From Anaerolineales bacterium (lineage in GTDB: Bacteria; Chloroflexota; Anaerolineae; Anaerolineales; Villigracilaceae), in assembly GCA_016789365.1 (NCBI GenBank), contig JAEURH010000015.1:1-47383 (forward strand): a DNA stretch of 47,383 bases. The letters are read 5' to 3'. This document shows, in pieces, positions 10,155 through 23,749 of this stretch (its first letter is position 1; each line of letters opens with the position of its first letter). Below the pieces are notes generated by a model, which worked only from the letters and a program-made list of their open reading frames with translations, had not been told where the DNA came from and ran no database searches. Both the position numbers and the translations under genes were made by a program.

Positions 10155-11603
10155 ATGACAGAAAAATCAGGCGCGCAAATTAGTCAGAAAGCATTTATTC
10201 AATCCGTCGTCATTTTATTTGCATTGATGATGATTGCAGGCATCCTCACGCTCATTATCCCAGCAGGTCAATACGCCCGCACAGAAGTAGATGGGCGCGA
10301 AACGATTGTTCCCGATTCATTCGCATTAACAGAAAGACCAGATTATCCCTTTTGGCGTTGGTTCATTGCCCCACTTGAAGTTGTGACAGGACCCGATGGC
10401 TTGACCGTCATTGTCATTACCGTTTTCATCTTAATGGTCGGCGTGGCTTTTGCCGTCATGGACAAAAGCGGAATCCTCAAAGCGGCTTTGGCTCGCATCG
10501 TAAAAAGATTTGAAAAACAAAAATACACTTTATTGTTAATCATTTCTTTTTTCTTTATGGCATTAGGTGCATTCTTTGGAATCTTTGAAGAAATTGTCCC
10601 ACTTGTGCCATTGATGATTGCTTTATCGTATTCTCTCAAATGGGATACATTGACAGGCTTAGGCATGTCCATCCTCGCTACCAATATGGGATTTTCCGCC
10701 GCGATTACAAATCCATTTACGATTGGCGTGGCACAAGGCATTGCGGATTTACCTGCATTTTCTGGCACGGGCTACCGCATTATCATCTTTATCTTCATGT
10801 ATATTTTGCTGGCAGTATTTCTCACACGCCATGCCAAAAAAGTAGAAGCGAATGCAAAAGCGTCTATTGTCTATGAAGAAGAACAAGAGACACGAAAAAA
10901 ATATAGCAACTTCACAAGCGAAGCGATTGCGGCAGAAAATTCACGCACCACACCAGCGATTATTTTCTTAATCGTTTGTGTCATATTAATTTTTGCGGCA
11001 TTGTTTGCAGGTCCGTTTATCCCTGCCATTAGTGATTTAGCATTACCAATCGTCGGGTTATTATTCTTAATCGCAGGCATTGGCTCAGGGTTAATCGCAG
11101 GTGTTGGTAAAGATGCGTGGAAAGCCGCAGGCGAAGGCTTAGCAGGTATTGCGCCAGCCATTCCGTTAATTCTCATGGCGGCAAGCGTGAAATATATCAT
11201 CGCTTCAGGTGGCATTCTCGATACAATTTTGCACAACGCTTCAAACGCATTACAAGGCGCAAACCCTGTCACTGCCGCGTTGTTGATTTATTTTCTAACA
11301 CTCGTTATCGAATTTTTTGTTTCGAGTGGTTCCGCCAAAGCGTTCCTCATCATGCCTATTATGATTCCGCTAGCAGATTTGGTCGGCGTTACACGTCAAA
11401 CCGCAGTGCTTGCTTATGTGTTTGGCGATGGCTTTTCAAACCTTGCTTATCCCACCAGTGCAGTGCTTTTGATTTGTTTGGGTCTCACAGCAGTCACCTA
11501 TCCAAAATGGTTGCGTTGGGTCATGGGCTTGTGGGTTTGGGTGATTCTCGCCTCATTAGTTTTTCTTGCTATCGCTGTCACCATTAATTACGGTCCATTT
11601 TAG
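10155..11603 (+). CDS. YfcC/DcuC-type transporter
   Basis: This 482-residue polytopic protein has about twelve helices and the family features of the YfcC group. These are the start KAFIQSVVILFALMM, the TLIIPAGQY motif after helix 1, the FFGIFEEIVPLVPL segment near residue 135, the ATNMGFSAAITNPFT re-entrant loop near 175, and FVSSGSAKAFLIMP near 395. YfcC-group proteins import carboxylates or basic amino acids; the exact substrate is not fixed. A GGAGAA site lies upstream. Its neighbours are ATP-grasp ligases and a peptidase-like gene, so an amino acid or peptide-derived substrate is plausible. Confidence 0.85.
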   Translation: MTEKSGAQISQKAFIQSVVILFALMMIAGILTLIIPAGQYARTEVDGRETIVPDSFALTERPDYPFWRWFIAPLEVVTGPDGLTVIVITVFILMVGVAFAVMDKSGILKAALARIVKRFEKQKYTLLLIISFFFMALGAFFGIFEEIVPLVPLMIALSYSLKWDTLTGLGMSILATNMGFSAAITNPFTIGVAQGIADLPAFSGTGYRIIIFIFMYILLAVFLTRHAKKVEANAKASIVYEEEQETRKKYSNFTSEAIAAENSRTTPAIIFLIVCVILIFAALFAGPFIPAISDLALPIVGLLFLIAGIGSGLIAGVGKDAWKAAGEGLAGIAPAIPLILMAASVKYIIASGGILDTILHNASNALQGANPVTAALLIYFLTLVIEFFVSSGSAKAFLIMPIMIPLADLVGVTRQTAVLAYVFGDGFSNLAYPTSAVLLICLGLTAVTYPKWLRWVMGLWVWVILASLVFLAIAVTINYGPF

Positions 11604-11612
11604 ATTACCGGA

Positions 11613-11664
11613 GTGCGTCGCGCCTGACAAATATAGATTTTCTACTTACAAAAGCGCGACGCAC
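11613..11664. repeat. Palindromic element, GTGCGTCGCGC type
   Basis: Perfect 11-base GC-rich arms (GTGCGTCGCGC and GCGCGACGCAC) surround a 30-base AT-rich loop between the transporter stop and the DUF2817 start. It has the same arm-loop architecture as the CGTCCCGCAGG elements but a different word. Confidence 0.75.
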
Positions 11665-11679
11665 CCTTTTACTTATCAG

Positions 11680-12792
11680 ATGATTAACCTCCCCTCAACT
11701 TACGAATCTTCGAGAGAACGATTCCGCGCTTCGCTCGCCTCTTTTTCGGACTTGTGGCTTGATTCGCGTTTAGACAGTTTTCCCTTAACTGACAACTCTG
11801 ATTTAACGATTGATGTCATCATCGCCAATGCAAATAAACAAAAAGAAAAATTGTTTATTCTCACCACTGGCTTACATGGTATTGAAGGCTATGTCGGCTC
11901 AGGGATTATTCAACTTTTCATAAAAGAATATCTATCAAAATTCAACCCTGACAATACAGGCGTTTTGATAGTTCACCCAATTAACCCACATGGGATGAAA
12001 TATCATCAGCGTGTGAATAAAAACAGCATTGACTTGAACCGCAACTTCAATAATATAAATTTTGAAGAGTTGAAAAAAGTTAATCCACATTACGAATCGT
12101 TTGAATTTTTATTAAATCCAAATCGCCCGTTGAAAAGCCCATTGTTTGAAAAGGTAAAGTTCTTATGGAATGTAGTTAACGCCTTACCAAAAGGTATTTC
12201 ATTAATCCGCGAAACGGCATTAATGGGACAATATCGAATCCATAATGGGATGCAATTTGGTGGGTTTGAATTGCAAGAAGAAACCAAGTTTATGATGAAC
12301 TTGTATGAAAAAGCCGTCAAAGATTATTCACAAATTTTGGCATTAGACATTCACACAGGCTATGGTCCACGCTATCAGATGACGGTGTTGAATCCGCCGT
12401 CACACAAAGAAAAGGCTGAGGAAACAACACGCAGGTTCAAGGTCAAGCAAGTGGCGGGGGTAAATCCAGAAGAGTTTTATTCGATTAATGGTGATATGAC
12501 TGAATATTTATATCAACTGCTTAATTCAAAATATCCTAATAAAAAATTTTATGCGGGTGCATTTGAGTTTGGCACATACGGTGATTCTTTATGGCAAGCC
12601 ATTCGCAGTTTACGAACAACCGTTTTCGAACATACTTTACGCTGGTTTGGTGGAAGTGATTCAGCAAAAAGTTGGGTGCAAAAAGAATATGACGAATTGT
12701 TTTTGCCTGCTGAAAAAAAATGGCGCGAAAAAGCCGAAGCTGATGCGCGCCAAGCGTTTGATGGAATTTTTGAAGCAGAAGGTTTTATTTAA
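11680..12792 (+). CDS. DUF2817 family protein, M14-like metallopeptidase
   Basis: The 370-residue protein carries the HGIEGYVGSG motif near residue 65, which supplies zinc ligands in the M14-type fold. It also has DLNRNF near 114 and a late DIHTGYG segment near 223, followed by an acidic AFEFGTYG near 295. Together these fit DUF2817, a carboxypeptidase-like hydrolase family. Its substrate is unknown. The frame extends upstream to 11566 inside the transporter gene, but that would translate the palindrome; the ATG at 11680 starts the conserved region. Its stop overlaps the 3' end of the convergent ATP-grasp gene by four bases. Confidence 0.8.
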   Translation: MINLPSTYESSRERFRASLASFSDLWLDSRLDSFPLTDNSDLTIDVIIANANKQKEKLFILTTGLHGIEGYVGSGIIQLFIKEYLSKFNPDNTGVLIVHPINPHGMKYHQRVNKNSIDLNRNFNNINFEELKKVNPHYESFEFLLNPNRPLKSPLFEKVKFLWNVVNALPKGISLIRETALMGQYRIHNGMQFGGFELQEETKFMMNLYEKAVKDYSQILALDIHTGYGPRYQMTVLNPPSHKEKAEETTRRFKVKQVAGVNPEEFYSINGDMTEYLYQLLNSKYPNKKFYAGAFEFGTYGDSLWQAIRSLRTTVFEHTLRWFGGSDSAKSWVQKEYDELFLPAEKKWREKAEADARQAFDGIFEAEGFI

Positions 12793-13757
12793 CTTTTCGC
12801 TCGCATTTGTTGACGGATAAATGCGGTTTTGAAGATTCGGTCAAAGAAACCTTTGTAGCCGTATTTATCATATAAAATCATATAATCGGCGGGACCAAAT
12901 TCATCAGGGCGAAGCAAGATAGCGGGGTTAGGATTGATTTCCAAAATAAATAATTCGCCTTGTTCGTTCATACGAACATCACAACGCCCGTAGCCGTGAA
13001 TGCCCATCGCCTTAAACATGCGCACGCCAATATCTTGTAAGCGAGGAATCAGTTCGGGTTCAGTAACCTCTCGAAAGTTGAAAGGAAGCGATGTATCCCA
13101 CTTTACAACGGTATGCCAAAATTCTTCGCCGGGCGGAAAAACTAATTCAGTTGGTGGATAGGCAATCGGGTTATCAAAATCATCGGGGTTTTCTACAATC
13201 AAAACATTGAACTCTTTGCCAATGATAAATTCTTCCATACGTGCCGCGCCATACAGCGAGCAAATTCTTTCTACTTGGGTTAAGACTTGCTCAATTGAAT
13301 CGCAACGCGATTCTTTAATCATGCCTGTACTGCCATAACTTTTTGGGTGCTTGACCATCACTGGAAAACGCAACGTGTTGACCAAATTTTTTGCTTCATC
13401 AACATTATGAACGCGATAGCCTTTTGCAAAACCGACATTGTTTGCATCGGCTTTGGTTTGCATTTCTTCTCGAGTGGGGTCGAAGCAATTCGAGCCTGCA
13501 CCTGTAAATGGAGCGTTGAATTCTTCCAACGCTTGCACAACTTCAATGGCGTGATACCCCCAATCTTCTTCCTCATCTTCAATTTCATAGCCTTCACAAA
13601 CATTTAAGAAGATGTCGTATTTTTTGCTTTCTATCAACTCGCGGATTTTGTCCCGCACGGGTGCGGTCATGGTGACCATTTCCCACTCGTAGTCTGTTAG
13701 GAATTGAGCAGGGTTGAAATCTGAAATTTCTTCGTCAGAGAGAACACACACGCGCAT
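12789..13757 (-). CDS. ATP-grasp ligase, D-alanine-D-alanine ligase-like (paralogue B)
   Basis: This 322-residue paralogue of the 8656-9594 protein has the same layout: MRVCVLSDEEISDFNPAQ at the N-terminus, FNAPFTGAGS, the ATP-binding VMVKHPKSYGS, MEEFIIGKEFN, and the metal site CDVRMNEQGELFILEINPNP. It carries an extra acidic insert (EIEDEEEDWG, residues 56-65). A GGAGG site precedes the ATG, unlike the leaderless-looking paralogue A. The function is probably ATP-dependent joining of a carboxylate and an amine; the substrates are unknown. The pair brackets a transporter and a peptidase-like gene. Confidence 0.8.
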   Translation of the reverse strand: MRVCVLSDEEISDFNPAQFLTDYEWEMVTMTAPVRDKIRELIESKKYDIFLNVCEGYEIEDEEEDWGYHAIEVVQALEEFNAPFTGAGSNCFDPTREEMQTKADANNVGFAKGYRVHNVDEAKNLVNTLRFPVMVKHPKSYGSTGMIKESRCDSIEQVLTQVERICSLYGAARMEEFIIGKEFNVLIVENPDDFDNPIAYPPTELVFPPGEEFWHTVVKWDTSLPFNFREVTEPELIPRLQDIGVRMFKAMGIHGYGRCDVRMNEQGELFILEINPNPAILLRPDEFGPADYMILYDKYGYKGFFDRIFKTAFIRQQMRAKS

Positions 13758-14093: not shown

Positions 14094-15131
14094 TTATTTT
14101 GTCTCCGTCACCTTGCGGATGCTACGCGGTTGTTCGGCATTGTACCCTTTTGCTAACGTAAGATGATAAGCAAATAATTGAGCAGGCAAAATGCTCACCA
14201 ATGGTGAAAGCCATTCAGGCACATCGTTCGGAATCGTCAACGGAACTTGCGCTAGTGATAATGCTTTTTTGTCGTTTGAAATCACAACCAACTCAGCAGA
14301 AATATCTGAACGCAATCTTTTCAACATTTCAAACATTGAGCCAAAAACTTTTCCCTTTGGTGCTACTGCTAAAACTGGATATCCTCTTTCGACCATTGCA
14401 ATCGGTCCATGAGCAAAATCGGCAGATGAATATGGCTCGGCAATAATGTAAGTTAATTCTTTTAACTTCAATGCCCACTCAAAAGCTGTAGCGTAATTAA
14501 ATCCACGCCCAAGCACAATGGTTTGGTCAATGTATCTATATCGTTGAGCAGATTCTTTAACAAAATCATTTTGCTTCAAAACTTGCTTCATCCAACCAGC
14601 AACTTTACTTAATTCATTCCAGCGCGTTTTATTTTTACTCAACGCGGTTGAAAGCATAGCAATTGTCATTAATTGAGTTGTGTAAGTTTTTGTCGCCGCC
14701 ACTGCTTTTTCTTTGCCCGCTTGAATATCTAAAACAAAGTCAGATATTTTTCCTAGTGGAGAATTCGGTTCATTCGTTATCGCAAGCGTCAAACAATTTT
14801 GTTTCTTGCCTTCTTCCAACACGCTCACAATATCTGGCGATTTGCCCGATTGTGAAATGCCAATCACCAAAGCATTTTTTAATTTCGGTGGTTGTTTGTA
14901 ATATGTAAATAATGATGGCGTTGCTAATGCAAGCGGCAAGCCATTCATTGCCCCCAATAAATAATTTGCATATCTACCTGCATTATCTGATGTGCCGCGT
15001 GCCGCTAAAAACACATATTCAATTTCATGTTTACGAATCTGATTTGCAATCCCCTCAATATTTTTTCTTTGATTTGATAATAAATTTTTGATTCGTTCTG
15101 GCTGTTCGGATATTTCTGAAAAAAGAGACAT
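14094..15131 (-). CDS. SIS-domain sugar-phosphate isomerase/deaminase (GlmS isomerase-like, GlmD/AgaS type)
   Basis: The 345-residue protein consists of two SIS domains and matches the isomerase half of GlmS without the glutaminase half. The sugar-phosphate loop LAARGTSDNAG is near residue 43, GISQSGKSPD near 95, and AVAATKTYTTQL near 145. A conserved PHE-like ADFAHGP segment is near 241. Enzymes of this kind include archaeal GlmD and bacterial AgaS, which turn glucosamine- or galactosamine-6-phosphate into the keto-sugar phosphate and ammonia. It ends the amino-sugar operon and is the only deaminase candidate there. GGAGA precedes the ATG. Confidence 0.82.
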   Translation of the reverse strand: MSLFSEISEQPERIKNLLSNQRKNIEGIANQIRKHEIEYVFLAARGTSDNAGRYANYLLGAMNGLPLALATPSLFTYYKQPPKLKNALVIGISQSGKSPDIVSVLEEGKKQNCLTLAITNEPNSPLGKISDFVLDIQAGKEKAVAATKTYTTQLMTIAMLSTALSKNKTRWNELSKVAGWMKQVLKQNDFVKESAQRYRYIDQTIVLGRGFNYATAFEWALKLKELTYIIAEPYSSADFAHGPIAMVERGYPVLAVAPKGKVFGSMFEMLKRLRSDISAELVVISNDKKALSLAQVPLTIPNDVPEWLSPLVSILPAQLFAYHLTLAKGYNAEQPRSIRKVTETK

Positions 15132-15147
15132 GATTAAATTCTCCGCC

Positions 15148-16725
15148 TCAATCTGACTTCGGCATGGTCACTGGCAACTGACCTGTTATCTTGCTTCGAC
15201 CAAACATCGCTTTCGCCACTGCTTTCATAGACGGTTCTAAAATGCTGTAAGTACACAAATAGGTTGAGACTTGCGGAATCACTACTAAATCATAAGGTAA
15301 ACGCATAGCAATCACAACCGTTGAAATGTTTAATTTCAATATTTGATTTACAAATTCGGCTTGCCTTTTCTCCGTATAAGCATTGATTGTGCCGACAATA
15401 ATCAAATCATAATTTTTCAATTTTTCTATTAAATCATTTCTTTCTTTTTCTTCGGGAGCGTAAGAGATAATAAATTCATCTGTATTTGCATGATATTGAC
15501 GAATTGCCTGTGCCAATTGCGGCGTGATATACGAAGATGTATCTGCGGGAGTTAAATCTAATGGCTTGGAGACAATCACTGCAACTCTTTTGTTTGATTC
15601 AAGTTTGAGTGGTAAAAGATTTTTTTCATCACGAACCAACGTGATAGATTTTTCAGCAATTTCATCAGCAATCACCAAATGTTCTGCGCATCGAATAATA
15701 GTTAAATCTGGTTTGGTATTTTTTTCAGCAAGCCATTGTTTCAGTTTGATAATTCTTTCGTAAGAAATTTTTAATCCATTAATATCTAATTTTTCATTTT
15801 TCGCGGCATTTAATAAACCTTCAGCAATTCTGGCTTGGTCTTGTGGGTCAGTTGTTGCCATCAAAATATCTGCGCCTGCTTGCACAGCCCGAACAGAATC
15901 TTCACCTAAAAATTCTCCCTGACGAATGGCGTGCATATCCATTGCGTCAGTAATCACAACACCTTCGTAACCAAGTTCTTCTCGTAATAACTTGGTCAAT
16001 ACATTTTTTGATAATGTAGCAGGTGGCGGATTTTCTCCATCAATTGATGTGATTCCGAGATGAGCAGTCATAAACAGTTTTGCATCTGCTTGAATGGCAG
16101 AAGAGAACGGAATCAATTCAACAGCGTGGAGTCGCTCGATGGAATGAGAAACAGTTCCAAGCGCGTGATGTGAATCGCTGTCTGTATCGCCATGACCGGG
16201 AAAATGTTTCACAGTCGCCGCCACGCCTTGAGATTGAAGCCCTTCAATCATCGCGGAAGATAACTCATCAACAAGTTGCGGGTCTTCGCCAAAAGAACGC
16301 ACGCCAATCACTGGATTTTGTGGATTGATATTAACATCCGCACACGGCGCGTAATTGACATTAATTCCAAGTGCGGCAAGTTCACGTCCCAGCACTTCGC
16401 CCGCTTTACGAGCCAATTCTTTTGAGCGCGTCGCACCTAACGCCATATTGCCCGGTAAAAGCGTGCAATCACCTACTGCCATTAGTTGTCCACCCTCTTG
16501 GTCAGCGGCGATTAATAACAAAGGCAAATCAAGTTCCTGCGACAGTGTTTGCAAAGATTCATTTAGGTTTTTTAATTCTTCTAATGTGCCAACATTGAAA
16601 GCACGAAATAACGTAATTCCGCTAGGTCGGTATTTATTAAAGGCTGTGATAATTTCTGGCGATAATGTTTGCTTCCCCTTAAATGCAAATAATAATTTTT
16701 GACCGATTAAATTTTTTATATCCAC
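15148..16725 (-). CDS. nagZ: Cytoplasmic GH3 beta-N-acetylhexosaminidase (NagZ-like)
   Basis: This GH3 enzyme of 525 residues carries the NagZ signature KHFPGHGDTDSDSH at residues 173-186, with the His-Asp acid/base pair, and the nucleophile aspartate D260 in VVITDAMDM. A GH3 C-terminal domain follows, as in Bacillus-type NagZ. No signal peptide is present, so it works in the cytoplasm on imported saccharides, removing beta-linked GlcNAc from chitobiose or muropeptide-type sugars. Some His-Asp GH3 enzymes act as phosphorylases, which cannot be excluded. The GTG at 16725 is chosen because AGAAGG lies five bases upstream; an in-frame GTG at 16749 would abut a palindrome and has no ribosome site. 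Confidence 0.87.
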   Translation of the reverse strand: MDIKNLIGQKLLFAFKGKQTLSPEIITAFNKYRPSGITLFRAFNVGTLEELKNLNESLQTLSQELDLPLLLIAADQEGGQLMAVGDCTLLPGNMALGATRSKELARKAGEVLGRELAALGINVNYAPCADVNINPQNPVIGVRSFGEDPQLVDELSSAMIEGLQSQGVAATVKHFPGHGDTDSDSHHALGTVSHSIERLHAVELIPFSSAIQADAKLFMTAHLGITSIDGENPPPATLSKNVLTKLLREELGYEGVVITDAMDMHAIRQGEFLGEDSVRAVQAGADILMATTDPQDQARIAEGLLNAAKNEKLDINGLKISYERIIKLKQWLAEKNTKPDLTIIRCAEHLVIADEIAEKSITLVRDEKNLLPLKLESNKRVAVIVSKPLDLTPADTSSYITPQLAQAIRQYHANTDEFIISYAPEEKERNDLIEKLKNYDLIIVGTINAYTEKRQAEFVNQILKLNISTVVIAMRLPYDLVVIPQVSTYLCTYSILEPSMKAVAKAMFGRSKITGQLPVTMPKSD

Positions 16726-16749
16726 ATCAACCTTCTTATAAATAAACAC

Positions 16750-16802
16750 CGTCCCGCAGGGTTATTCGAGTATCAAAGTTTTACAAGAAACCCTGCGGGA
16801 CG
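16750..16802. repeat. Palindromic element, CGTCCCGCAGG type (copy 2)
   Basis: Perfect 14-base arms (CGTCCCGCAGGGTT and its reverse complement) enclose a 25-base loop in the gap between the ABC permease and NagZ genes, inside the operon. The core matches the copy at 3829-3881. Confidence 0.8.
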
Positions 16803-16809
16803 TTTCCCA

Positions 16810-17652
16810 TTAACCTTTCAATCCTGAAACAACAACGCTTTCAAGAATATATCTTTGAGCAATAAAAAATACAACTATCAACGGAGCAGTTGTTAAAACT
16901 GCCGCAGTCATAATGGTGGGCCAAGGCTGAACAGTTTGGTTGATATTGTATAAAGTAGAAACATAAACAGGCAAAGTATATAAATCAATCGTTTGCAAAT
17001 ACATTAATGGAGTTAACAAGTTGTTCCACAAACCCACAAACAAAAATGTAGCAATCGTTGCAAGTGGTGCTTTGACCAATGGCAAAACAATCTCCCACCA
17101 TACTTGCAGATGTGTAGCACCATCCACAAAAGCGGATTCATCTAATTCTTTTGGAATTTGCGCCATTGACTGACGAAGCAAAAATATCATCGCCGCGCCA
17201 CCTGCAAAATAACCGGGGATGATGATGGGATTGAATGTACCAATCCAACCTAGTTTATTAAAGAAAACATATTGTGGGACAATTAATGCCTGTGCTGGAA
17301 TCATCATGGTTGAAAGCATTAAGAAGAAAACAACATTTCGCCCGGGCCATTCAATGCGACTGAAAGCATACGCCACCGCCGCAATGGAAATCAATGTGCC
17401 TGCCATTGCCAAAGTGACATAAAAAACTGAATTGAAATACGAGCGCAAAAAATCAGAATTATTGAAAATATTGATATAGGCTTCTAATGTCGGCTGAGCT
17501 GGAATCCAGACAATGCCGGGCGAGTTTGTTTCTTGAATCGTTTTCAGTGAAGATGAAATCATCCAAAACAATGGAAAACTCATCAAAACCGTTGCACCGG
17601 TCAACAAGGTGTAAAGAAATGCACCTCTGATTAAAGGAAAATATTGTTTCAT
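16810..17652 (-). CDS. Carbohydrate ABC transporter permease (MalG/NagG type)
   Basis: This inner-membrane permease of 280 residues has six helices and the ABC permease EAA loop near residues 170-190 (DESAFVDGATHLQVWWEIVLPLVKAP), which docks the ATPase. It belongs to the CUT1 family MalG side, which imports oligosaccharides. It starts nine bases after the stop of its partner permease. No dedicated ATPase is encoded in the locus, so a shared MsiK/UgpC-type ATPase elsewhere is likely. Confidence 0.9.
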   Translation of the reverse strand: MKQYFPLIRGAFLYTLLTGATVLMSFPLFWMISSSLKTIQETNSPGIVWIPAQPTLEAYINIFNNSDFLRSYFNSVFYVTLAMAGTLISIAAVAYAFSRIEWPGRNVVFFLMLSTMMIPAQALIVPQYVFFNKLGWIGTFNPIIIPGYFAGGAAMIFLLRQSMAQIPKELDESAFVDGATHLQVWWEIVLPLVKAPLATIATFLFVGLWNNLLTPLMYLQTIDLYTLPVYVSTLYNINQTVQPWPTIMTAAVLTTAPLIVVFFIAQRYILESVVVSGLKG

Positions 17653-17661
17653 TGGCTTTTC

Positions 17662-18816
17662 CTAATAAATATCATACGTTACCCAACGGTCTTGTAAGCG
17701 GAATTGAATCACAGTCACGATTAAGATAATCACCAGAATTACCCACGAAATCGCCGAGCCGTATCCAATTTCAAAGTGGCTGAATGTTTTTTGCCACAAG
17801 TAATACACCATTGAAATTGTGGAAGAGATAATCGGTTGATTATCTCGATACAAGACAAAAATAGGTTCGAAAATTTGTAAGGAAGCAATCAAGCCGACGA
17901 CGAGGTTATAAAAGATGTAGGGAGTCAGAAGCGGAAAAGAAATCTTCCAAAACTTTTGCCAGCCTGTCGCGCCGTCTACTTCTGCCGCTTCATGTAATTC
18001 TTTAGGAATGTTATTCAAGCCAGCCAAAAAAATTAACATCATCGCACCGCATCCCCACACCATTAACATAATCACAGACATTTTCGTCCACAATGGGCTT
18101 TGTACCCACAACGGCACACGGTTATCTGCGGGGAAACCTGCTTCTAGTATATTCATCAACAAGTTATATTTCCCAGTATTCAAACCGAGAAAAAATCCAG
18201 TGATAATTTCTTGCACATAAATTAAAGTACGGTTGAGATAATTAAAAGGTGAAAATGCAGTAGATAACGAACGAATAATTTGATTAATAATACCTGTGCC
18301 AGTGTTCAACATCAGACGCCAACATAAAAGCACTGCTGTGTTGAAACCTAAAATCACTGGCAAATAAAATGCCATGCGAAAAATTTTTTCACCCTTCATT
18401 TTTTGATTTAATAAAACTGCTAAAAATAATGCCACACCCATTTGTAACGGCAAACCGATGACTGTCAAATACAAGGTGTTGATAATTGAAGCGCGAAAGC
18501 CAGCGTCATTAAATAAAATTGTTTGATAATTTTCAAACCCTTTCCAATTGGGCGGCGCAGAAGATGTGACGCGATAATCTGTAAAACTCCAATACAAAGA
18601 AAATGCCAACGGAACAAGCACAAAGATAAGAAAGCCGGTAATCCATGGTGCGGAAAAAAAATATCCAGCAAAAGTGTTTTCTTGATGTTTTGGAGACCCG
18701 CCTCTTTTTCGGACTATCCAACGGGCTACTGACCCCAAGCCATAACTACACCCGATGATAAAAATCACCGTGAATAAAGCCATGAGCAATACATTGAGAT
18801 ACGGATTTGTTGGCAT
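17662..18816 (-). CDS. Carbohydrate ABC transporter permease (MalF type)
   Basis: The 384-residue partner permease has six core helices, an extra N-terminal helix and the EAA loop near residue 270 (ELHEAAEVDGATGWQKFWKISFP). It contains an unusually long periplasmic-side insert between helices of about 60 residues (near 180-240). The CUT1 family usually takes up oligosaccharides. The ATG at 18816 has an AGGAGA site five bases upstream; a longer frame starting at 18852 lacks one. Confidence 0.88.
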   Translation of the reverse strand: MPTNPYLNVLLMALFTVIFIIGCSYGLGSVARWIVRKRGGSPKHQENTFAGYFFSAPWITGFLIFVLVPLAFSLYWSFTDYRVTSSAPPNWKGFENYQTILFNDAGFRASIINTLYLTVIGLPLQMGVALFLAVLLNQKMKGEKIFRMAFYLPVILGFNTAVLLCWRLMLNTGTGIINQIIRSLSTAFSPFNYLNRTLIYVQEIITGFFLGLNTGKYNLLMNILEAGFPADNRVPLWVQSPLWTKMSVIMLMVWGCGAMMLIFLAGLNNIPKELHEAAEVDGATGWQKFWKISFPLLTPYIFYNLVVGLIASLQIFEPIFVLYRDNQPIISSTISMVYYLWQKTFSHFEIGYGSAISWVILVIILIVTVIQFRLQDRWVTYDIY

Positions 18817-18891
18817 GGGATTTCTCCTGCTTGAAAGTGGTGAGTTGGGCAAGGTAGAGGAGAAGCCTCGCCCAACTCAAAGTATAGATTG

Positions 18892-20256
18892 TTATTTCAA
18901 CGCGGCAACATATTGTTCTTGAATAGTGGCAACCACTTCTTCAGGAGTCAATTCTTCGGTGATGAGTTTGCCAAGTGCTTCTTGCATAATGGTAGAAAGT
19001 TTGGCGGCTTCTTTAATGCCAGCAAAACCAACACCATATTCAGCGGCTAATTCGGCTTCGCGTTGTAATTGTGGAGAATCAGTCACATAGCCGTATTGAG
19101 CGTCATTGCGAGCAGGAATCAAGCCCATGGTTTCATTCCATTTGTGATTGCCTTCTTTGCTGAAAGCAAGTTTTAACCATTCTGCGGCGAGTTCTTTGTT
19201 GGGGCTGTAATCAGCAACGGCAAGCCAATCATTGAACGCTAATACAACAGGTCGGCTGTTGGGGAAGTTTTCTGGGTCACCATAAAATGGTTCAATAGAA
19301 ACATTTTCCCAAATGGGTCGGTCAAATGCAGGAGCCGCCCAACCAGAGTGAGCCAAACATACACCACCATTATCGTTACCAGTAGCATCGTCTTTATCAA
19401 TCACAGAGCCTTGACCAGTCGGCAATGAACCAACTGCATTTACAGCAGGTCCATAAGTGGCTTGGCGCATGTTGAGGATAAATTGAGTCGTTGCTAATGC
19501 TTCAGGTGAATCAAAGTTTGGTGAGCCATCGTCTTTATACAATTCACCGCCCAATGAATAGTACACCAACAGCCAGAATTGCCAATCCGCCATAGAGCCA
19601 GCATCTACTGGAATTAATGCTTGTTGAGTTAGTGAATTGGTGGCAGAATCAATAGTGGTTGCTTGGGATGCAAATGCTTCCCATTCTGCAAAGTTCTTTG
19701 GCGTACCTGTTGTCCAACCAGCAGATTCCATTAAGTCTTCGCGACAGAACACGTAACGAGGCGCAGTGAAAATTGGTAAACCACGCAGTTTACCTTCATA
19801 CTTTGCGTTTTCAAGTGCAGGACCAAAGTTGCTAATTTCATCCCAAGCACCCTCACCAAGATATGCTTCCATATCCGCAAGATTTTCACCATACAAAGTA
19901 TTCATTTCAGAACCGAGATTGATGATATCTGGTCCATCACCTGCGGCAAAAAAGCCAGCAAACGTTGTATCCCAACCAGACCATGAACCTTCTGTAATCT
20001 CAACCGTCACACCAGGATGAGCCGCTTCAAAAGCAGGGTTAATTTCACTTTTCAACCATGCAATCGTATCGGGTGTGTAATCAAGTAAGTAAATTCTTAA
20101 AGTCTTTGATTCAGCAGGTGCATCCGTTGCGGCGGGCGCATCGGTGGCGGCTGGTTGTTCAGCAGGGGCTTCTGTTGTGGCAGGTGTGCCACAAGCCGAT
20201 AACACCATACTTACCAAAACCAACAGTGATAACAAAGCAAACAGTTTCTTATTCAT
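18892..20256 (-). CDS. Sugar-binding lipoprotein of an ABC importer
   Basis: This extracellular solute-binding protein family 1 member of 454 residues begins with a lipoprotein signal (MNKKLFALLSLLVLVSMVLS) and the lipid-modified Cys at C22. A low-complexity Ala/Pro/Thr/Glu linker follows to about residue 52, then the binding domain (TLRIYLLDYTPDTIAWLKSE). It is anchored to the outer face of the membrane and delivers sugar to the two permeases encoded next. The ATG at 20256 has AAGGAG upstream; an extension to 20292 would lengthen the signal and has no support. The substrate is probably a GlcNAc saccharide, inferred from the neighbours. Confidence 0.88.
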   Translation of the reverse strand: MNKKLFALLSLLVLVSMVLSACGTPATTEAPAEQPAATDAPAATDAPAESKTLRIYLLDYTPDTIAWLKSEINPAFEAAHPGVTVEITEGSWSGWDTTFAGFFAAGDGPDIINLGSEMNTLYGENLADMEAYLGEGAWDEISNFGPALENAKYEGKLRGLPIFTAPRYVFCREDLMESAGWTTGTPKNFAEWEAFASQATTIDSATNSLTQQALIPVDAGSMADWQFWLLVYYSLGGELYKDDGSPNFDSPEALATTQFILNMRQATYGPAVNAVGSLPTGQGSVIDKDDATGNDNGGVCLAHSGWAAPAFDRPIWENVSIEPFYGDPENFPNSRPVVLAFNDWLAVADYSPNKELAAEWLKLAFSKEGNHKWNETMGLIPARNDAQYGYVTDSPQLQREAELAAEYGVGFAGIKEAAKLSTIMQEALGKLITEELTPEEVVATIQEQYVAALK

Positions 20257-20274
20257 TTTTCTTCTCCTTAATAA

Positions 20275-20287
20275 TTGTTTGGAACAA
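20275..20287. promoter_or_regulatory. Possible ROK-repressor operator before the binding-protein gene
   Basis: The small palindrome TTGTT-TGG-AACAA lies 19 bases upstream of the start codon of the binding-protein gene. TTGTT/AACAA half-sites are common in XylR/NagC-type ROK operators. No binding data; the match is short. Confidence 0.3.
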
Positions 20288-20360
20288 ACCAATTCAAACC
20301 AAACGATGAAATATTTTTTTGTATTCTCCTTTCTGGAAGATGATTCAAAGTTGAAAACGC

Positions 20361-21209
20361 CTAAATCATCCTACCTACTCTCTCCTGAACGTCATTTGAA
20401 AAGCGCTGGATAAATCCTTGAACAAATTCTGCTGGGTTTAAGTTTGTATCGTGCATCAAAGGAGTCATATCCATTGCATAAGACAAACCAGTCGTAGCAT
20501 CTACCTCATGCGATTCAAAATAAGTCGCATTTGCTCGACGGCGTCCCATCGAAGCCAAATCGTAGCGTTTACCGCCGACAATTTGGGAATCGAACACACC
20601 TAATAAAGCCAATTGCAAATTCTCGTGATGAGATAGATTCATTACCACTTTATCTGAATCGACCATCCAATCTAATGACCGCCATACTTCACAACCCACG
20701 CATCTTTGCGGACGTTCAACCTGATTCAGTCTTCGTAAGGCTTCTACTACTCGTAAAGCGACTCCGATATGCGTATCATGCTTATCCGCCAAGTTATGGG
20801 TATAAACAACTTTTGGTTTTGTCGCTTTCAAAATTTTGACAATGTCATCAACAGATTCATGTTTCGAAGAATCTTTGATTATCTTGCTAGGAATATCCAA
20901 CATAATTTGGGCAGAATATTCCCCAATCATCGCCGCACGATATTGCTCACGAAAACGAACTGAGCGCATTTCTTCATCAGAATAGTTTTGATAAATACTA
21001 TTTCTTGGTGAGCCACGCCCGTCAGTGACTACAACACCCGTAAACCAAGCGTCTTCTTTTTGAAAACATTCTAGAATCGGTTGCGCCGCCATAATTTCAA
21101 TATCATCTTGATGTGCGGCAATACACAAATGCGTTGTACGAGACAATGCTTCTTCAACCGAAACATTGTCTGGGATATAAATTTCAGCAGTCTCTAAATG
21201 AAATTTCAT
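20361..21209 (-). CDS. PIG-L family deacetylase
   Basis: The 282-residue protein belongs to the PIG-L/LmbE family of zinc-dependent N-acetylglucosamine deacetylases. The metal motif is H33-Q-D-D36 (AHQDD, where AHPDD is commoner) with the distal H144-D-T-H147. Relatives include archaeal diacetylchitobiose deacetylase and BshB/MshB. It is cytoplasmic. The ATG overlaps the stop of the upstream kinase gene by four bases, so the two are coupled. In this locus it is the only deacetylase, suggesting it takes the place of NagA on GlcNAc or GlcNAc phosphate; this is inferred, not shown. Confidence 0.85.
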   Translation of the reverse strand: MKFHLETAEIYIPDNVSVEEALSRTTHLCIAAHQDDIEIMAAQPILECFQKEDAWFTGVVVTDGRGSPRNSIYQNYSDEEMRSVRFREQYRAAMIGEYSAQIMLDIPSKIIKDSSKHESVDDIVKILKATKPKVVYTHNLADKHDTHIGVALRVVEALRRLNQVERPQRCVGCEVWRSLDWMVDSDKVVMNLSHHENLQLALLGVFDSQIVGGKRYDLASMGRRRANATYFESHEVDATTGLSYAMDMTPLMHDTNLNPAEFVQGFIQRFSNDVQERVGRMI

Positions 21210-22600
21210 ATCCGTTCCTCAGCAATAACTGGTAAACTTGCCGCCGCGACAGATTGACCCACACGCCGAATCTTTTCATCTGGTAAATGCAATTCAATTT
21301 TTGATAACAATTCAGGGAATTCTGTTTCAAAAACTTTCTTCACACCTTCTAACAATAAATCTCCGCCTTTGCCAGAAGTACAACGACCTAAAATCAAAAC
21401 ATGTTTAATCTCATAAAACTCGGCATAATGAGCAATGCCATATCCCAAATAGATTCCCATGCTTTGCCAAATTTTGGTTGCGCCTTCGTGACCTTCTTCC
21501 AATTTCTTTTGCACAATCTTTAACTTCTCAGCATCAGTCACATCATTTGGAATTTCAATCCCAGCTTTTGGTGCCAAACGAAATACACATTGTTGTGAAA
21601 AATATGATGCTCCACAACCTTGGTCGCCAGACCATTCTTCAATGGGCGCATTTGGGTTGTAATCAATTGGCGCAAATGCCAATTCATTTAACCAGCCCAT
21701 AATTTTTCCATCCATGTTGACATAACCAGCCGCCTCACTTGAACCCAAAGCAATTCCTAAAATTCCATCTTCCCCAATAGACATTGAACCTGCTAAGGCA
21801 GTCACGTCGCCATCATTAATTACTTCTAGGGGTACTCCTAATTCATCTTTGATTCTCAAAAACATATTTCTAATTTCATCAAAGCGTTCTTTCGGAATTC
21901 CACGAAACAATGAAGCCACCATCGGGCGATTATCAATATAAATTCCTGCCGAACTTCCACCAATTGCATCCACACGCTCAAGTTTGTTTGCCGCAGTTTT
22001 CAAGGCTTGCATAATTTCGTTGTAGTGATAACTTGGGTCGGCATGTTTTTTCGGTTCCCAAATTACTTCTTCACTGAAAATTGGGTTGCCATCAATCACT
22101 GCACTAACTTTTCTATCTGAAGCACCTAAATCAAAGCCGATGCGATGACCCTGCAAATTTCGCCCCAACAATTTCCCCGTCTCAAATGAAGCGGGCATTT
22201 CATCTAATGCACAAGCAATCACACGCAAATCTTTTTCATACACTTGCTTGCCCATAAAATCAAAATCAAATTTTCTTGCACCGGTTGCAGAATATATTTT
22301 ACGAATATGGTCAGCAATTTTTTCAGAACCAGCAATATAAATGGTATGACCACCACGTTGCCATAACAAAAATTTTATAATGCGTTCAACATATTGATAA
22401 TTTGATCCAAACTTTGCATGACCTTGTGGATAGACTTTGATTTCAAAACGAGAAAATTCACCGCTTCTTTCTAAGCCGATAATTAATACTGTTCCCTCAG
22501 CATTTACTTCACGTTGAAAATTTTGATTTGCCAACACTGCTGGGCGAAACCCTTCATCCAACGGTGGCGAAAGTTTTGGTTTGATTAATTGCAACGCCAT
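21206..22600 (-). CDS. ROK/BadF-type sugar kinase with an extended N-terminus
   Basis: The 464-residue protein has a sugar-kinase core starting at about residue 152. This includes the phosphate loop IGFDLGASDRK, GGSSAGIYIDN near 235, VINDGDVTALAGS near 285 and IALGSSEAAGYVNMDG near 306. The first ~150 residues are an added domain of unknown role (VYPQGHAKF, RGGHTIYIAGSEKI). The usual ROK zinc cluster is absent, and one GxGxG-like ADP site (GRCTSGKGGD) is seen near 410. It is probably an N-acetylhexosamine kinase given its position between ROK repressor and deacetylase. A GGGAGG site lies in the end of the repressor gene. Confidence 0.72.
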   Translation of the reverse strand: MALQLIKPKLSPPLDEGFRPAVLANQNFQREVNAEGTVLIIGLERSGEFSRFEIKVYPQGHAKFGSNYQYVERIIKFLLWQRGGHTIYIAGSEKIADHIRKIYSATGARKFDFDFMGKQVYEKDLRVIACALDEMPASFETGKLLGRNLQGHRIGFDLGASDRKVSAVIDGNPIFSEEVIWEPKKHADPSYHYNEIMQALKTAANKLERVDAIGGSSAGIYIDNRPMVASLFRGIPKERFDEIRNMFLRIKDELGVPLEVINDGDVTALAGSMSIGEDGILGIALGSSEAAGYVNMDGKIMGWLNELAFAPIDYNPNAPIEEWSGDQGCGASYFSQQCVFRLAPKAGIEIPNDVTDAEKLKIVQKKLEEGHEGATKIWQSMGIYLGYGIAHYAEFYEIKHVLILGRCTSGKGGDLLLEGVKKVFETEFPELLSKIELHLPDEKIRRVGQSVAAASLPVIAEERI

Positions 22601-23749
22601 TTAATTTTCCTCCCTAAACAAAAGAGAATAATCATCTAGCAATAAAAATGCAGATGCACCGAGAATACAAGCGCGATAATCTAAATTACCGATCTCGATT
22701 TTTGTACCTTCATACATTTTTTCTAATGATGCTTTTTGCATTGAATCTTTAATTGCATTAAGCCATGTGTCACCAAGTTGCGTCATATAGCCTGTGAGGA
22801 CAATTTTTTGAATATTCAATGTGCCAATTAAATTCGCAAGTGAAACACCTAAATATTTCCCCGCATTGATGACAATTTGTTTTGCGTTTCCATTGTTTGC
22901 AGAAAATTCGGCAAATGCTTGCTCAAAAGAAGAAACGCCCAATTGATTCATCATTGCTCGTGCGCTTGCCACTGTTTCTAAACACCCTGATTTTCCGCAA
23001 CGACATTGAATACCATTCTCTTGCACCACCACGTGACCAATTTCCCCCGCCCCGCCGCCGTCTCCTTGAAACAAACGTCCATTTATCAAAATACCTGCCG
23101 CAATACCGTATTTGACATTCACGACAATTAAATTTTCATCAGGCTTATGATGATTACCATAAACATATTCACCAATTGCTGTCGCTTGGCTATCATTCAA
23201 AATGGAAACGGGGAGTTTATATTTCTTTTCAAGCAAAGCACGCAAAGGTAAATCTTTCCATGCTAAGTTCACCGCGTTGACAATTACGCCTTCACGAGTA
23301 TTTACTAAACCGGGTGTGCCAACGCCAATACCGACAATCGGTTTTATTTTTTTACGAATGAGTTGGTCTAATATTTGGTAAACGAGTTCAAGTGCTTTCT
23401 CCCCATTATTATCATTGACCTGAACTTCTACCATCTCTTTGATTTCCCCTCTCAAATTCACAATTGCGCCGATAAATTTATCTTGAGCAAGATTCAATGC
23501 AAGCATATAACGCGAGTCTGGGACAATGCTCAATAAAATAGGAGTTTTTCCACCAATCGATTCCCCTCGTCCCACTTCGTCCACTAAGCCTTCATTCAAC
23601 AAGCCGCTGACTACATCGGAAACGGTTGTGCGTGTGAGATTGGTAATGCGAGCAATTTCAGCGCGACTGATTGCCTCATGCGAAAACAATGTCCGCAAGA
23701 CCAAATCACGATTATGTTGCTTGGTTTGTTGATGAGTAGCCTTCTTCAC
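22601..23749 (-). CDS. ROK-family transcriptional repressor (NagC/XylR type)
   Basis: The 382-residue regulator has an N-terminal winged helix-turn-helix (about residues 15-62; AISRAEIARITNLTRTTVSD) and a ROK sugar-sensing domain. It keeps the zinc motif GHVVVQ...CRCGKSGCLE near residue 240-260, with the invariant His and three Cys. It should bind an operator near the amino-sugar operon and be released by a sugar or sugar phosphate. The start is GTG with AAGGA seven bases upstream. Its stop directly abuts the kinase ATG, so it heads the operon and probably controls itself. Confidence 0.88.
   Translation of the reverse strand: MKKATHQQTKQHNRDLVLRTLFSHEAISRAEIARITNLTRTTVSDVVSGLLNEGLVDEVGRGESIGGKTPILLSIVPDSRYMLALNLAQDKFIGAIVNLRGEIKEMVEVQVNDNNGEKALELVYQILDQLIRKKIKPIVGIGVGTPGLVNTREGVIVNAVNLAWKDLPLRALLEKKYKLPVSILNDSQATAIGEYVYGNHHKPDENLIVVNVKYGIAAGILINGRLFQGDGGGAGEIGHVVVQENGIQCRCGKSGCLETVASARAMMNQLGVSSFEQAFAEFSANNGNAKQIVINAGKYLGVSLANLIGTLNIQKIVLTGYMTQLGDTWLNAIKDSMQKASLEKMYEGTKIEIGNLDYRACILGASAFLLLDDYSLLFREEN

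Follow-up and report, generated by a model that had tools for sequence, protein, structure and literature searches.

The stretch of DNA analysed here (the window, 47,383 nucleotides; contig JAEURH010000015.1 of the Anaerolineales bacterium assembly GCA_016789365.1) carries on its minus strand, at 14094-23749, a set of eight genes that looks like an operon for the catabolism of N-acetylglucosamine (GlcNAc). All eight open reading frames (ORFs) are open, and comparison with Pfam and NCBIfam confirmed the families assigned in a first-pass annotation of the same sequence, i.e., a ROK repressor, a ROK-like kinase, a PIG-L deacetylase, an ABC importer, a GH3 enzyme and a SIS-domain protein (Table 1). 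Since the gaps between the genes range only from -4 bases (PIG-L and kinase) to 68 bases, the set looks like a single predicted operon. Pfam detected no ABC ATPase among the eight genes, the rest of the genome not having been searched for one, and the importer presumably uses a shared ATPase encoded elsewhere.

Table 1. Features of the proposed GlcNAc locus and its downstream neighbours (positions in the window)
Feature	Position	Strand	Basis
ROK-family repressor, NagC-like	22601..23749	minus	Pfam ROK 174.9 bits; NagC model 186 bits, under the cut-off of 650; CXCGXXGCXE zinc motif intact (motif read)
Divergent ROK-fold sugar kinase, proposed GlcNAc kinase	21206..22600	minus	Pfam, structure model, context
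N-terminal part of the kinase	22157..22600	minus	No Pfam or NCBIfam family matched
PIG-L family deacetylase, proposed GlcNAc-6-phosphate deacetylase replacing NagA	20361..21209	minus	Pfam 62.2 bits; structure model; context
ABC sugar-binding protein	18892..20292	minus	SBP_bac_1 73.9 bits; weak NgcE match, 35.1 bits (cut-off 399.65)
ABC permease	17662..18852	minus	BPD_transp_1
ABC permease	16810..17652	minus	BPD_transp_1
GH3 beta-N-acetylhexosaminidase, NagZ-like, C-terminal domain	15148..16749	minus	Glyco_hydro_3 274.5 bits (over cut-off)
SIS protein, proposed glucosamine-6-phosphate deaminase	14094..15131	minus	Pfam SIS and NCBIfam comparisons
Short ATP-grasp protein adjoining the SIS gene	12789..13757		Dala_Dala_lig_C
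DUF2817 protein	11566..12792		Weakly similar to M14 peptidases and to the murein tripeptide amidase MpaA

We propose, with a probability of about 0.78, that this is a ROK-regulated GlcNAc catabolic operon in which the kinase forms GlcNAc-6-phosphate (GlcNAc-6-P), the PIG-L enzyme takes the place of NagA, and the SIS protein deaminates glucosamine-6-phosphate (GlcN-6-P). The ABC importer would bring in GlcNAc-containing di- or oligosaccharides, from which the GH3 enzyme would free GlcNAc inside the cell. The kinase, as a separate branch of the ROK fold, would convert GlcNAc to GlcNAc-6-P, and the PIG-L metal enzyme, as a non-orthologous replacement of NagA, would strip off the acetate, the reaction carried out by NagA elsewhere. 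The SIS enzyme would finally turn GlcN-6-P into fructose-6-phosphate and ammonia. Gene content, gene order, conservation and the swapping of partner genes were observed, and from these we infer the reactions.

The first-pass annotation had pointed out that neither NagA nor NagB is present in the set, and the genome bears this out. In the metagenome-assembled genome (MAG) to which the window belongs (3.8 Mb, 86.5% complete, 398 contigs), no NagA (TIGR00221) scored over the cut-off, the best matches being fragments of at most 27.4 bits. The only Glucosamine_iso (PF01182) match, considered as a NagB, adjoins a gnd-like gene (6-phosphogluconate dehydrogenase) and reads as a 6-phosphogluconolactonase (pgl), both labels being assigned by eye. 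The incompleteness of the MAG is judged an unlikely cause of the absence of nagA because kinase-bearing relatives and the genomes of the class show the same pattern: among 61 relatives, the kinase is present in 15 and NagA over the cut-off in 9, without a single overlap. The order repressor, kinase, PIG-L, importer, GH3 or a URO-D/MtaA-like protein, and SIS recurs in the relatives with long enough contigs, and in one of them (G053) kinase, PIG-L and SIS are contiguous.

At the level of the class, we surveyed 297 genomes, all at least 90% complete apart from the window's own, with thresholds of E <= 1e-40 for the kinase, E <= 1e-50 for PIG-L and E <= 1e-75 for SIS, and with NagA and NagB counted when over the model cut-off. 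The kinase was detected in 52 genomes (in a few as fragments), this PIG-L in 48 and NagA in 205. Kinase and PIG-L occur together in 37 genomes, as against PIG-L in 11 of the 245 without the kinase (odds ratio 52, Fisher p 2e-25, kinship ignored). NagA, on the other hand, was present in 11 of the 48 genomes with PIG-L versus 194 of the 249 without it (p 6e-13, kinship ignored). The same holds among the kinase-bearing genomes, with NagA in 8/37 of those with PIG-L versus 12/15 of those lacking it (p 3e-4); the remaining three have the kinase at a contig edge, so that all 52 save these three have either this PIG-L or NagA over the cut-off. PIG-L and NagA even alternate inside genera: g23 and g24 each include one genome with NagA (G136; G168) and one with PIG-L (G284; G315), and g32 two with NagA (G297, G304) and one with PIG-L (G346).

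The exchange is also visible directly beside the kinase. The gene that follows it is PIG-L in 32 of the 52 genomes and NagA in 8, and never both; the kinase lies at a contig edge in 3, and neither partner was found within 2.5 kb in 9. In five of these nine, PIG-L lies on another contig, and no common third enzyme was recognized by eye behind the nine kinases. Seven of the eight NagA neighbours exceed the nagA cut-off at exactly this position (G108, G133, G147, G155, G167, G208 and G226), and the proteins of three of them (loci L142 in G167, L134 in G108 and L128 in G226), scanned directly, reached 296.6-321.2 bits (cut-off 225.65); the eighth (G138) is a tblastn match only (66% over 280 residues). 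In a kinase tree of 81 rows, built with a quick method, the NagA-linked kinases sit among the PIG-L-linked ones, with a minimum of three partner changes, at least two of which are required by branches with strong support; L128 (NagA), for example, is sister to L143 (PIG-L) with a support of 99. SIS follows NagA directly in at least 30 genomes and PIG-L directly in at least 6. Hexosaminidases are found in the same surroundings: a GH20 enzyme directly after the kinase in one locus (L112) and as the last gene of the kinase's row in another (L144), and GH3 directly after PIG-L in three (L218-L220). A third arrangement was observed at L130:3117-5230: here the gene after the kinase encodes another SIS-type sugar isomerase (SIS_2; NF002805, 252.7 bits), a NagA-like match lies 6 kb off, and SIS is matched upstream on the opposite strand.

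Two operons bear on the substrate. In L142, from a Caldilineales MAG, two permeases (identified by eye) are followed by an AXE1 esterase, a DHDPS-family lyase, a GlcNAc 2-epimerase (GlcNAc_2-epim), the kinase, NagA and SIS, and no second kinase appears among the ORFs listed. The order GlcNAc 2-epimerase, kinase, NagA therefore places the kinase between GlcNAc and GlcNAc-6-P. The one-contig genome G315, of the window's family, has a row of GntR, NanE, ABC importer (some ABC parts identified by eye), NanA-like lyase, ROK kinase, NanQ-like protein (below the anomerase cut-off), PIG-L and SIS. As NanE should yield GlcNAc-6-P, PIG-L would here occupy the place of NagA. A tblastn search with the G315 genes against the fetched loci numbered from L066 upward retrieved no second sialic-type operon with PIG-L. 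The earlier suggestion that PIG-L and SIS replace NagA and NagB in a bacterial GlcNAc operon is in line with these data, and the use of PIG-L for NagA appears well supported by genomic context, i.e., by the partner swap and the co-occurrence counts. Regarding the substrate, the first-pass annotation had left the choice between a phosphorylated and a free sugar; the contexts of L142 and G315 favour the former, most likely GlcNAc-6-P, and speak against the latter.

The properties of the two central proteins agree with these roles. The PIG-L protein exceeds the gathering cut-off of PF02585 (28.2 bits), and H33, D35, D36, H144 and H147, which make up HxDD and HxxH motifs that we take to have a metal role, are invariant in 41/41 aligned sequences. 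K214, R223 and R224 are likewise invariant in all 41 and may hold the phosphate. Its structure model (predicted local distance difference test score, pLDDT, 94) has its best fold matches in the PDB among Pyrococcus diacetylchitobiose deacetylases and a BshB-like Bacillus protein. The kinase matches Pfam ROK at 19.8 bits, under the cut-off of 22.9, over residues 154-407; among its relatives, one (L165) reaches 27.8 bits, over the cut-off, and three (L128, L134, L155) give no match. No NCBIfam model (E <= 0.001) and no PDB sequence (E <= 0.01) matched it. Its structure model (pLDDT 92) nevertheless has the ROK fold, with a Foldseek E of 3.9e-18 to the ROK glucokinase 2qm1 and with ROK glucokinases, ROK repressors and amino-sugar kinases as partners over about 320 alignment columns. 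G155, D157, G159, D263 and E306 are invariant in 54/54 aligned kinases, and the CXCGXXGC zinc motif occurs in none of them. The unassigned N-terminal part recognized in the first-pass annotation consists of about 150 extra residues that are conserved across the relatives.

The SIS protein scores 233.7 bits against NagB-II (NF046059; cut-off 430), its highest value among the catabolic SIS models. An identity as GlmD, which is another SIS branch, was rejected (NF041128, 74.5 bits, cut-off 580), as was MurQ (33.3 bits, cut-off 302). Because SIS was found in 221 of the 297 class genomes and NagB in only 4, a SIS protein as the deaminase is the norm in this class and not special to the window. The GH3 protein reaches 167 bits against the NagZ-type model NF003740, below the cut-off of 207, and bears the motif KHFPGHGDTDSDSH, as read in the translation.

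Relatives of the kinase extend beyond the class. Searching genome contigs with the kinase alignment gave at least 592 matching stretches, 574 of them encoding a relative (tblastn E <= 1e-3), and the best 80 were kept. Among these 80, the closest kinases with a named source come from Anaerolineales and other Chloroflexota records, and the record titles, which can be wrong for MAGs, include Chloroflexi, Hydrogenedentes, Armatimonadetes, Acidobacteria and Planctomycetota. PIG-L accompanies the kinase in 59 of the 80 loci and NagA in 7 (six within 1.2 kb downstream, one 6 kb off), both in none and neither in 14; in four of these 14, the locus stops no more than 100 bases from the kinase. A search of a plasmid collection at blastn sensitivity did not find the pair. 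We checked 23 pair-bearing genomes, 22 with titles not naming Chloroflexota and that of Anaerolinea thermolimosa IMO-1; the latter, whose locus (L106) includes genes for the kinase, PIG-L and an importer, has no NagA-like match at E <= 1e-30.

Several observations weigh against the proposed route. The activities of PIG-L, kinase and SIS are predictions from sequence and context, and the SIS protein scores higher with GlmS models (241-256 bits) than with NagB-II and reaches no cut-off. The window's own MAG holds 15 amidohydrolase matches. In the class, where the counts are uncorrected for kinship, eight of the 37 genomes with kinase and PIG-L also carry NagA over the cut-off, weaker NagA-like matches under the cut-off (E 1e-47 to 1e-52) occur in four other PIG-L genomes, and 11 genomes have this PIG-L without the kinase. 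The contig of L142 starts just before the permeases, where the view of its upstream genes ends, and L134, which is similar, has a further ROK kinase and a more distant lyase. The sialic-acid-type operon of G315 is one case among the 48 PIG-L genomes, and its lyase is under the NanA cut-offs (164 vs 281; 129 vs 382). In the other lineages, SIS is absent from all 22 fetched stretches, and a NagA-like match (E <= 1e-30) is present in 17 of the 22 genomes, in four of them over the cut-off. Because of the latter, the replacement of NagA is a claim on the window's class rather than a general one, and elsewhere the pair may be additional. Considering both sets of genomes, we lean slightly towards the view that the kinase and this PIG-L subfamily form a paired, previously unnamed GlcNAc kinase/GlcNAc-6-P deacetylase system across several phyla, which in Chloroflexota would replace NagA, with repeated swaps beside the same kinase, and elsewhere would act as a second route, of the salvage type, alongside NagA-like enzymes.

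The data from the other lineages, i.e., the lack of SIS beside the pair and the NagA-like proteins, would also suit an old pair with another main role (e.g., salvage into uridine diphosphate-GlcNAc, or a thiol or glycan pathway) that is part of a catabolic operon here by chance. This is unlikely, as in the window's class the pair often occurs with a SIS deaminase, an importer and a hexosaminidase and NagA is mostly absent, and salvage to GlcN-6-P requires the same two reactions anyway. In Thermococcales, diacetylchitobiose is deacetylated first, and the first-pass annotation had considered a bacterial variant of that route. PIG-L would then act first on chitobiose or free GlcNAc, the kinase would be a glucosamine kinase and SIS would deaminate GlcN-6-P, which is compatible with the gene order and with the Pyrococcus enzymes as the nearest solved folds. 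However, the kinase family is found between GlcNAc 2-epimerase and NagA, which fits the conversion of GlcNAc to GlcNAc-6-P, and PIG-L in G315 lies near the end of an operon with N-acetylmannosamine-6-phosphate (ManNAc-6-P) and GlcNAc-6-P as the expected intermediates. Moreover, the hydrolase is a NagZ-like GH3 enzyme and not the archaeal exo-glucosaminidase, and the SIS protein is not GlmD-like. A Thermococcales-like route is thus quite improbable; the context points to the opposite order, with deacetylation probably following phosphorylation.

It is very unlikely that the same chemistry serves another sugar, such as N-acetylgalactosamine-6-phosphate, ManNAc-6-P or a muropeptide sugar. The loci do differ in their aldolase-like, epimerase and URO-D/MtaA-like neighbours, and the ATP-grasp protein adjoins SIS in the window, with similar ORFs in five relatives, but the GH3 and GH20 hexosaminidases, the GlcNAc 2-epimerase and NanE neighbours and the swapping with NagA indicate GlcNAc. 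The muropeptide sugars brought up in the first-pass annotation, with catabolism through MurQ (the N-acetylmuramic acid route), are disfavoured by the lack of a MurQ match over the cut-off in the window's own genome, which is incomplete.

Among the neighbouring genes, the ORFs adjoining SIS in the five relatives (L067, L069, L071, L073, L074) resemble the ATP-grasp protein in their N-terminal sequence. The DUF2817 protein perhaps takes part in the use of peptidoglycan peptides, judging from its similarities. A URO-D/MtaA-like protein (L087:15691-16875; Pfam URO-D 156.7 bits) takes the place that GH3 has in the window; it lies between importer and SIS in L089 and directly after PIG-L in L115 and L124, and four relatives (L067, L069, L070, L072) have sequences assigned to it by N-terminal likeness.

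In the open-licence literature, no description of a PIG-L/LmbE protein as GlcNAc-6-P deacetylase was found in the titles and abstract openings of the matches listed, and the available part of PMC5583593 gives non-orthologous alternatives for NagB and NagK and none for NagA. PMC9942424 and PMC6277806 describe the Chloroflexota of sludge and lakes as scavengers of GlcNAc, the former reporting nagAB in one MAG. Annotation that relies on nagA would overlook the deacetylation step in as many as 37 of the 297 class genomes, which have PIG-L and no NagA over the cut-off, and the PIG-L route may explain the use of GlcNAc by bacteria without NagA. If the proposed route is true, it gives a function that can be tested directly to two families that so far have none, and one step is done by two unrelated enzymes beside the same kinase.

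The operon can be compared with several known systems. The nag operon of Thermotoga maritima shares the ROK regulator, ABC importer, NagZ-like GH3 and SIS deaminase, and has NagA instead of PIG-L. The PIG-L enzyme has in common with NagA (TIGR00221) the proposed reaction and the position between kinase and SIS deaminase, but belongs to an unrelated family and is not an amidohydrolase. With the ROK GlcNAc kinase NagK (PDB 7p7w, 4db3), the kinase shares the ROK fold, the Pfam ROK match and the proposed reaction, while it differs in lacking the zinc motif, in its N-terminal extension and in the absence of a PDB sequence match. The Pyrococcus diacetylchitobiose deacetylases (PDB 3wl4, 3we7) have the PIG-L fold with the HxDD and HxxH motifs (3wl4: E 1.9e-10, template modelling score 0.62), but only 15-16% identity, and their substrate in the archaeal route is a disaccharide without a phosphate. 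BshB and MshB, PIG-L deacetylases of GlcNAc glycosides, are of the same family and similar fold and act on thiol precursors; the window's PIG-L reaches 39.3 bits against the BshB1 model (cut-off 182.5). For Thermococcus, the deacetylase TK1764 and the deaminase TK1755 are named in PMC6579819. In Shewanella, the SIS-type deaminase NagB-II (SO3506) acts on GlcN-6-P alongside NagA and a kinase; its activity is reported to have been confirmed earlier (PMC2996990) and the genes are listed in PMC3219624, so that NagB-II within GlcNAc operons is already known. The window's SIS protein stays below the NagB-II cut-off and has PIG-L as its partner deacetylase.

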